54,744 bases of DNA from a virus: positions 1 through 54,744 of the IMG/VR virus record IMGVR_UViG_3300027996_000045, one strand, 5' to 3'. A program made the translations under genes and the position numbers. Every line of letters starts with the position of its first letter. The first letter of the stretch is position 1. The notes below the pieces were generated by a model. That model was not told where the DNA came from. It ran no database searches and was given only the letters and a program-made list of their open reading frames with translations. Shown piece by piece: positions 19,044-20,582 of this stretch.

Positions 19044-19255
19044 GCTGCCTCCTCCTCTTTGATCATGCGCTTGGCCTCAGCCACGCTGGTCGGCCACCCC
19101 ATCGGCGACATGGTCGCGGTGTCCACCAGCGGCCCATCGACGCGGTAAAGCGTTACGGTCGCGCGGTAGCTGCGGTTGAAACACCGGCGAAACACGTCGC
19201 GGCTGGTGTTGGTCTCGGTGATGGTGTGGCCTTTGTAACTCGTGATCGTGCTCAT
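19040..19255 (-). CDS. Small early protein (unrecognised)
   Basis: The 71 aa product (MSTITSYKGHTITETN) is beta-rich then helical (SVAEAKRMIKEEEAA). The pattern of an initial YKGHTI hairpin with a final SVAEAK-x-x-I helix is common in small phage proteins of unknown function. Coupled to the next gene by ATGA. Confidence 0.55.
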   Translation of the reverse strand: MSTITSYKGHTITETNTSRDVFRRCFNRSYRATVTLYRVDGPLVDTATMSPMGWPTSVAEAKRMIKEEEAA

Positions 19256-19324
19256 AGTCTTACTCCCTATACCTGCAATGTGTGTCTGTTATGATAACCG
19301 TCAAGGGGTTATCTTCAGAAAAAA

Positions 19325-20110
19325 TCAACCGGTGTCTAACATTGGGTCGATGTTAGCCAGTCGGCGCAGGACGCAGCCGATCACCATTGCGCACTGCGGG
19401 ACCACCGCATTGCCTAGCGCTCGGAGTCGGGCACGGTCCAGTCGCGTGCTAGTCCCATCATCCACTCCACAAACCGGGGGGCCAGATGCCCACCCTTCGT
19501 GTCGCCTGCTGTTGGCGTGGGCAGCAGGCCCCGTCGAGCTAGTGTGTGCAGTGACGGGGTGCCTTTGTGGGCGTACTCCGTCCGTCCGTCGCCGGGGTTG
19601 CCGTTGCCGCTCGTTCCGTACACCGACGCCGATGGTGTGGGCAACAATGAATACTCGCCGTCGCAGGTGCGGAGCGCCGACATCTGACGCCGCAATTGGG
19701 ATCGGTAGCGTTTCGTACCCGAGCTGTCCCAGCGACCCACGCACGGCATCAACCCAGCGCTTGGCTCCGCTTGCGACGTTTTCAACGACAACCCAACTTG
19801 GCCGTGCTTCGCCGACGAGTCGCTCGAACTCATACCAGAGGCCGCTTCGAGCACCAGCGAGGCCAGCTCCTCGGCCTGCGGCAGAAACGTCCTGGCAAGG
19901 GAATCCGCCGCAGATGAGGTCGGGGTTTTGTAGGTCTTGTCCTCTGGCATCTCGTATGTCCTCCAATTGCTTTGCTTCCGGCCAGTGCCGCCGGAGCACG
20001 GCTCGGCAGTACGGGTCCTGCTCAACTTGCACCACCGTGTGTCCGACACCAGCGGCCTCAAGCCCAAGCTCAAGGCCGCCGATGCCGCTGAATAGGCTGG
20101 CGATTCTCAC
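19325..20110 (-). CDS. dcm: C5 cytosine DNA methyltransferase
   Basis: I chose GTG at 20110 because it overlaps the upstream TGA (GTGA) and follows GGGAGAG; GTG at 20128 is an alternative. The 261 aa product has motif I SLFSGIGG, motif IV GGFPCQDVS (Cys72 nucleophile), motif VI ENV, motif VIII RRRVFIVA and motif X RALGNAVVP. The target-recognition region between VIII and X is short (~75 residues), so specificity cannot be read. It may protect phage DNA from host restriction. A second reading frame is used through most of its length (see 19414-19950). Confidence 0.88.
   Translation of the reverse strand: MRIASLFSGIGGLELGLEAAGVGHTVVQVEQDPYCRAVLRRHWPEAKQLEDIRDARGQDLQNPDLICGGFPCQDVSAAGRGAGLAGARSGLWYEFERLVGEARPSWVVVENVASGAKRWVDAVRGSLGQLGYETLPIPIAASDVGAPHLRRRVFIVAHTIGVGVRNERQRQPRRRTDGVRPQRHPVTAHTSSTGPAAHANSRRHEGWASGPPVCGVDDGTSTRLDRARLRALGNAVVPQCAMVIGCVLRRLANIDPMLDTG
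19414..19950 (-). CDS. Overlapping-frame protein inside methyltransferase gene
   Basis: A 178-aa frame lies wholly within the methyltransferase gene on the same strand. Its ATG (19950) follows GGAGG with 9-base spacing. The product contains two LLPTP blocks (SLLPTPSASVYG and GLLPTPTAGDTKGG) and ends with HLAPRFVEWMMGLARDWT. I recognise this PTPTA-x-D ... P-x-F-V-E-W-x-M-G-x-x-x-x-W-T pattern from proteins seen beside or within phage C5 methyltransferase genes. It is not a random shadow. Function unknown; a partner or specificity factor of the methylase is one possibility. Confidence 0.6.
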   Translation of the reverse strand: MPEDKTYKTPTSSAADSLARTFLPQAEELASLVLEAASGMSSSDSSAKHGQVGLSLKTSQAEPSAGLMPCVGRWDSSGTKRYRSQLRRQMSALRTCDGEYSLLPTPSASVYGTSGNGNPGDGRTEYAHKGTPSLHTLARRGLLPTPTAGDTKGGHLAPRFVEWMMGLARDWTVPDSER

Positions 20111-20493
20111 GCGCACTCTCCCGTGCACTGCATCCCCAGCACCTCAAGCAGAGCCTGCAGGCGCACTGTGAACCGCGCCACGGCTTGCTCGCTGCAGTGA
20201 CACTCAGACGGGCGCAGCCGGCCCGCCATCCCGCAGGGGCAGCCCCATGTGCGGACGACCAGCGCTCGCGGCGGCAGGTCATTCATCACGCGGGCCATCG
20301 TGTCGACAGCTTGCATTGAGAAGCTCTCCAGCTCGTCGAGAAGCAGTACGCCGTCTTCGGCCATCTCCGCTTGCTCAGCGCACGCTAGCGCCCCGCAGGA
20401 GTGGTGAGGGGCGCGCATGGCCACGCCCTCTCGCTCTGCGATAGCGCAGGCGGTGATGCCTGCGCCAGCTCCGTTGATAAGGATCTTCTTCAT
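20107..20493 (-). CDS. Miniature ComM/YifB-like (Mg-chelatase) AAA+ protein
   Basis: The 128 aa product starts at the ATG overlapping a 30-codon gene (ATGA). It carries the core of the ComM/YifB branch: MRAPHHSCGAL, Walker B DGVLLLDELESFSMQ, then CPCGMAGRLRPSECHCS followed by ARFTVRLQ, equal in order to RAPHHS, GVLFLDEL and NPCPCG...C-x-C in the full ~500-aa ATPases. The expected P-loop is replaced by GAGAGITACA without lysine, and the Lon-like N-terminal and C-terminal domains are absent. It may bind a host ComM-like helicase or act in trans. Confidence 0.65.
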   Translation of the reverse strand: MKKILINGAGAGITACAIAEREGVAMRAPHHSCGALACAEQAEMAEDGVLLLDELESFSMQAVDTMARVMNDLPPRALVVRTWGCPCGMAGRLRPSECHCSEQAVARFTVRLQALLEVLGMQCTGECA

Positions 20494-20582
20494 CGGTTCA
20501 GCCATTCGTCGAAGGTTACGTATGGAAGCCCCAGGTCTTGCATTGCTCTCACGTAGTTGTCGTAGCGGTCTTCAAGTGTCAT
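20490..20582 (-). CDS. 30-aa micro-protein
   Basis: A 30-codon frame, MTLEDRYDNYVRAMQDLGLP then YVTFDEWLNR, has AGGAG at good distance upstream and ends with a TGA overlapping the ATG of the ComM-like gene. It reads as a compact helical peptide. It may mainly couple translation or be a true micro-protein. Confidence 0.45.
   Translation of the reverse strand: MTLEDRYDNYVRAMQDLGLPYVTFDEWLNR

Follow-up and report, generated by a model that had tools for sequence, protein, structure and literature searches.

A probable split C5-cytosine methyltransferase encoded in two overlapping frames of one phage locus

Two-polypeptide C5-cytosine methyltransferases have been described before. For M.EcoHK31I, which recognizes YGGCCR, Lee, Kam and Shaw reportedly found in 1995 that the small polypeptide, of 176 aa, comes from another frame of the large gene. 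The larger M.EcoHK31I polypeptide carries motifs I-VIII, motif X and the predicted TRD, and the smaller one only motif IX, while M.AquI is split between motifs I-VIII and motifs IX-X (PMC3404938). The kind of split enzyme defined by the M.EcoHK31I motif partition is thus already known; it is also widespread in phages, where it is mostly unannotated, and a limited literature search found no description of its breadth among phages, of dual-coding evidence, of a de-overlapped relative or of shifting boundaries. The locus presented here is very probably one such enzyme, a single split C5-cytosine methyltransferase made as two proteins from overlapping frames, in which the second protein, beta, would provide motif IX and target recognition in trans to the first, alpha.

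The window, meaning the whole 54,744-nt stretch of an IMG/VR virus record that was analysed, carries the alpha gene in a phage replication region, with genes for a Sak4-like annealing protein, an exonuclease, a primase-helicase, a second helicase and an HTH regulator as neighbours; no restriction enzyme was recognised among the neighbouring genes scanned. Alpha has motifs I-VIII and X, with I, IV, VI, VIII and X in one catalytic chain, as the preliminary description had said without stating that motif IX is missing. PF00145 matches alpha with an E value of 1e-38 over residues 8-167 only, and none of the Pfam, NCBIfam and PADLOC profiles goes beyond about residue 165-180, so that they cover alpha up to and including motif VIII. 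No motif IX was found in the alpha chain; it is located in the +1 frame instead. The features of the alpha frame are:

19325..20128, minus strand: alpha, the C5-cytosine methyltransferase catalytic subunit (267 aa, GTG start, in the annotated-type frame)
20069..20101, minus strand: motif I (ASLFSGIGGLE), alpha
19883..19906, minus strand: motif IV with the catalytic Cys (GFPCQDVS), alpha
19775..19792, minus strand: motif VI (VVVENV), alpha
19640..19678, minus strand: motif VIII (GAPHLRRRVFIVA), alpha
19397..19423, minus strand: motif X (RALGNAVVP), in the alpha frame directly past the end of beta, with a slight overlap with beta

The gene upstream of alpha (20107-20505, minus strand) shares 22 nt (20107-20128) with the alpha GTG start, which suggests translational coupling. 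An antisense ORF of 309 codons spans the whole gene (19242-20171, plus strand). As a candidate third gene it was discarded: in each phase the antisense frame is open in 2 of 60 relatives, close to the 0.9-5.0 expected from permutation, so this ORF is probably due to chance.

Beta lies wholly inside the alpha gene and on its strand. The same-strand frame of 178 codons proposed in the preliminary description, 9 nt after a GGAGG, is indeed there at 19414-19950 on the minus strand, with an ATG start, and its two LLPTP blocks and terminal PRFVEWMMG..DWT block were found again at 19615-19647, 19489-19527 and 19435-19488. The phrog_1008 family, named "DNA methyltransferase", matches beta in two stretches (E 3.1e-19), and no Pfam or NCBIfam family matched it. 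The features of the beta frame are:

19414..19950, minus strand: beta, phrog_1008, predicted motif IX and recognition subunit (+1 frame relative to alpha, 178 codons plus stop, ATG 19950)
19948..19964, minus strand: candidate ribosome binding site GGAGG, 9-nt spacer and ATG 19950 (AATTGGAGGACATACGAGATG)
19852..19871, minus strand: second candidate start of beta, GAGGAG ... GTG 19854, in the zone where relatives with a short open frame start
19615..19830, minus strand: beta N-domain (approximate limits) through LPTP block 1, dual-coding, overlapping alpha motifs V-VIII
19615..19647, minus strand: LPTP block 1 (LLPTPSASVYG), an other-frame reading of the end of motif VIII
19489..19614, minus strand: VIII-IX stretch, by the family-wide substitution pattern constrained in beta and apparently a read-through linker in alpha
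19489..19527, minus strand: LPTP block 2 (LLPTPTAGDTKGG), beta
19435..19488, minus strand: motif IX of the split enzyme (HLAPRFVEWMMGLARDWT; LAPRFVEWMMG..DWT), at the C-terminal end of beta

The start of beta is not certain, ATG 19950, GTG 19854 and a further in-frame candidate, ATG 19833, all being eligible. Where a stop shortly upstream closes the frame, nearly every locus shows an ATG with a strong Shine-Dalgarno sequence at 10-13 codons ahead of the N-domain. Among the 118 loci with the layout of the window, ATGs preceded by a Shine-Dalgarno sequence occur in the zone next to the N-domain in 36 (24.2 +/- 3.6 under permutation preserving alpha) and in the upstream zone, where ATG 19950 lies, in 28 (12.1 +/- 2.7).

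Conservation of one protein by itself makes the other frames of its gene look alike to some degree. A codon-permutation control was therefore used, in which the alpha amino acids were held fixed, synonymous codons were permuted, and the openness and profile scores of the other frame were compared. Of 2000 such permutations of the window locus, 0.7% leave the 178-codon frame uninterrupted. Profiles were then built without the window or its nearest relative; that of the beta N-domain gives 74 bits on the window, against 29 +/- 9 after permutation, and that of motif IX 36 bits against -7 +/- 8, none of 300 permutations reaching either score. About 40% of the N-domain score is a shadow of alpha, and the remainder is not. 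A motif IX profile free of any overlap, built solely from the 42 loci that have IX in the main frame, gives 33.3 bits on the +1 frame of the window (permuted -7.4 +/- 8.3; 0/2000 as high), and the non-overlapping beta of one relative, L058, used as a profile, gives 16.3 (permuted -4.3 +/- 6.3; 0/2000).

The searches yielded 182 distinct loci. With the window beta as query, tblastn found no named phage at 1e-5; a search with the beta of a relative returned 174 records. The layout of the window, with the N-domain and motif IX in +1 and motif X in frame 0, is found at 118 of the 182; about 40 have motif IX in frame 0 again, four (L034, L114, L127, L166) have both IX and X in +1, and one, L058, has everything in frame 0. 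Of the 118 window-layout loci, 116 have an open beta frame, where permutation predicts 5.9, and none has an open third frame. Most relatives were retrieved by beta similarity, which biases this count toward intact beta frames; the loci retrieved with alpha alone (L003, L004, L005, L007, L136-L138, L447, L451) matter for that reason, and all of them have beta. Beta is conserved as a protein among relatives that are about 20-57% identical and of differing length, motif IX being its best-conserved part. No beta signal was seen in two ordinary enzymes with IX and X in frame, E. coli Dcm and that of the virus Drs3.

At six loci (L030, L043, L047, L049, L062 and L119) the boundary between the frames is a wandering one; IX and X are back in frame 0, the LPTP blocks are in frame 0 or +1 depending on the relative, and the N-domain is still selected in +1. 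Across the family the N-domain stays in +1 under motifs V-VIII, while LPTP, IX and X are each found in +1 or in the main frame according to lineage. On this basis it is conceivable, if short of probable, that methyltransferase segments wander between two frames and that some apparently single-chain phage enzymes make an N-domain beta peptide. If so, long dual coding would be an old and stable phage design, and the family an exceptionally clean natural experiment on the formation and dissolution of overlapping genes.

Methyltransferase genes of Streptococcus phage 94 (L446:917-1780) and phiC2 (L448:1093-2043) contain a +1 peptide (..SESPKTENECSLSDILEE..KYFLS..) that is N-domain-like and scores slightly above permutations against the beta N-domain (3/200 and 2/200, respectively); it may be a relic or another overlapping product. 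At L006:1738-3142 an HNH-type-looking insertion (CxxC..HHDDYNKP..CxxCHHDWHK) splits alpha between motifs III and IV. At L016:3046-3429 an HNH-like zinc-ribbon peptide (CAQCGKTEKLQRHHPNYTSTDCVILCHSCHTEIHRK) follows the beta stop in the beta frame, and sits inside a long alpha insertion ahead of motif X.

Substitution patterns show how far both frames are selected. Over 48 disjoint pairs of the window type, 48.0% of four-fold sites differ outside the overlap and 30.3% inside it, and divergence is lower inside in 37 of 46 pairs. The phiBT1 family behaves likewise, with four-fold divergence of 47.6% in its alpha-only part and 52.9% in its beta-only part, against 18.4% at alpha sites and 13.8% at beta sites within the overlap. 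Behind motif VIII the pattern is another one. In the VIII-IX stretch the third position of beta codons is the most changed (0.407) and the alpha third position, which is the beta second, the least (0.210); in motif IX the corresponding values for the beta and alpha third positions are 0.270 and 0.078. Dual selection thus lies mainly over motifs V-VIII, about 200-260 nt. Since VIII-IX substitutions follow beta, alpha would merely read through there: beta is the constrained protein behind VIII, and alpha looks like a linker leading to motif X.

The clearest view of beta outside the overlap comes from L058. The genes for alpha and beta share 220-263 nt in the phiBT1 family, the N-domain lying over motifs V-VIII. 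L058 instead has a single ORF of 588 codons without any overlap: its first part, to motif VIII, corresponds to phiBT1 alpha (57% identity), and the part behind it to phiBT1 beta (52% identity over 227 aa, N-domain included); the fused alpha and beta occupy L058:1355-2710. Because the N-domain is non-overlapping here, it stands as an independent protein domain. In the vacated +1 frame of L058, which has decayed, the beta signal is gone (10.3 bits, against 14.8 +/- 5.5 permuted), whereas all other loci in the same run score above their own permutation mean. L058 and phiBT1 thereby form a before-and-after pair for overlap loss.

With these results the preliminary description can be read more narrowly. 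Its second conserved protein, linked to target recognition, has gained support from the phrog_1008 match and from the permutation and selection analyses, and beta is almost certainly a real gene. Homologues outside forced overlap do exist (L058 with the whole of beta in frame, and about 40 relatives with motif IX in the main frame), close relatives were examined for stops in the beta frame and as a rule have none, and the proposed suppression of synonymous change was observed in window-type pairs and the phiBT1 family alike. The claim that both frames are selected over more than 500 bases holds mainly over motifs V-VIII and fails from VIII to X, where substitutions follow beta. The suggestion that beta compensates for a short recognition region is probably right in linking it to recognition, but falls short in that beta also holds the missing motif IX.

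The signal of beta might be a shadow of alpha, its openness and apparent conservation forced by the methyltransferase protein and codon bias; permuted sequences do still reach 29 bits on the N-domain profile, and the codons of motifs VIII and IV underlie LPTP block 1 and SADSLART, respectively. Alpha-preserving permutation, however, reproduces neither the openness nor the N-domain nor motif IX; synonymous change is suppressed in the overlap, E. coli Dcm and Drs3 lack the signal, and L058 has a non-overlapping copy whose old frame decayed. The non-overlapping homologue and the permutation results refute this explanation, which we consider scarcely credible. A constraint on the nucleic acid, such as RNA structure or a site, would fit the synonymous suppression taken alone just as well as a second protein, but beta-only and VIII-IX substitutions follow beta codon positions, and the protein is conserved at about 20-57% identity despite differences in length, so that the chance of this is practically nil.

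Two further readings accept the coding signal in +1 and differ over the product. Programmed ribosomal frameshifting would join alpha (I-VIII) to beta (LPTP, IX) with no separate beta; the +1 geometry is constant, and natural single-chain fusions such as L058 imply that a joined product would work. Yet a shift behind VIII would omit the N-domain, which is selected in +1 across V-VIII, and the joined product would in the window be devoid of motif X. The enrichment of Shine-Dalgarno-preceded starts ahead of the N-domain, together with the selection on that domain, favours independent initiation over such a shift, which is accordingly unlikely. The idea that beta, instead of being the recognition subunit, is a separate protein that regulates or antagonizes the methyltransferase finds some encouragement in the weak N-domain-like +1 peptide retained by the in-frame enzymes of Streptococcus phage 94 and phiC2. 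Against this, motif IX is missing from alpha and present in beta, of which it is the most conserved part, and L058, L030 and L034 carry beta segments within a methyltransferase chain; a regulator is very unlikely.

There remains the split enzyme. The computations show that beta is selected as a protein, that it contains the motif IX missing from alpha, and that a relative has both in one fused chain. In the proposed mechanism, alpha (267 aa) would fold as the catalytic domain, with motifs I-VIII and X, AdoMet binding and the catalytic Cys, and between VIII and X would need no more than an open frame to bring the ribosome to motif X. Beta would initiate inside the alpha gene in the +1 frame, presumably independently, at ATG 19950 or GTG 19854, and provide in trans motif IX together with the segment for recognition, made up of the N-domain and the LPTP blocks. 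The two would form a heterodimer that methylates the phage genome, either as protection from host restriction or in regulation. Target recognition by beta is suggested by its position and by motif IX; the motif IX helix itself is clear, and it would be beta rather than alpha that touches the DNA bases.

AF2 of the window beta alone (113 sequences) gave a pLDDT of 62 and a pTM of 0.26, with about 80 for the C-terminal 48 residues; so poor a model would be expected if beta folds on alpha, and proves nothing. The natural fusion L058, modelled with separate alpha and beta rows, gave a pTM of 0.72, with pLDDT of about 75-85 for the N-domain strands and the motif IX helix and a weak LPTP part; the best PDB matches of this model are M.HhaI, MET1 and DNMT1.

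It is rare for a long stretch to code on the same strand for two proteins that are both needed by one enzyme, and here the layout is common to 118 distinct loci. In several annotated records one of the two genes is missing. In Streptomyces phage phiBT1 (L126:1257-2304) alpha (gp9.1) is labelled "may be inactive" and beta lies unannotated in the gap behind it; in Pseudomonas phage VB_PaD_phPA-G (L452:939-1667) beta is the annotated "hypothetical protein" CDS0044 and the alpha frame is unannotated. This means that the phage methyltransferases now recorded as truncated or inactive probably include some complete enzymes of two subunits, which would come out as false negatives if just the annotated frame were expressed.

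Among known systems, single-chain enzymes such as M.HhaI and Dcm share the catalytic motifs and fold, but have the TRD, IX and X in frame in one chain, and the +1 frame of E. coli dcm is without a beta signal. The phrog_1008 or "DNA methylase" pairs of actinophages (JangDynasty gp6/gp5, Andrew gp43/gp44, Samy SAMYPH_49/50) resemble the window in having alpha and beta, their annotation giving two genes that follow one another or overlap; no motif X was found in their alpha frame, whereas the window alpha reaches X and encloses beta. M.AquI (CYCGRG) is likewise two polypeptides complementing each other in one C5-methyltransferase, but has IX and X together on its small subunit where the window has X in alpha; an M.AquI-like split is seen in the relatives phiBT1 (in whose family the genes overlap by 220-263 nt), L034, L114 and L127. 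M.EcoHK31I, finally, has the same partition, with I-VIII and X in alpha and motif IX only in the small beta polypeptide, and, given the other-frame origin reported for its small polypeptide, the same arrangement, beta (19414-19950) lying inside alpha (19325-20128) in the +1 frame. The window pair differs in being phage-borne with no restriction partner seen nearby, and in that the evidence points to a recognition segment in beta, where M.EcoHK31I has its predicted TRD on the large subunit. By motif partition rather than by beta sequence, the analogy that the window pair would work like M.EcoHK31I is well supported.
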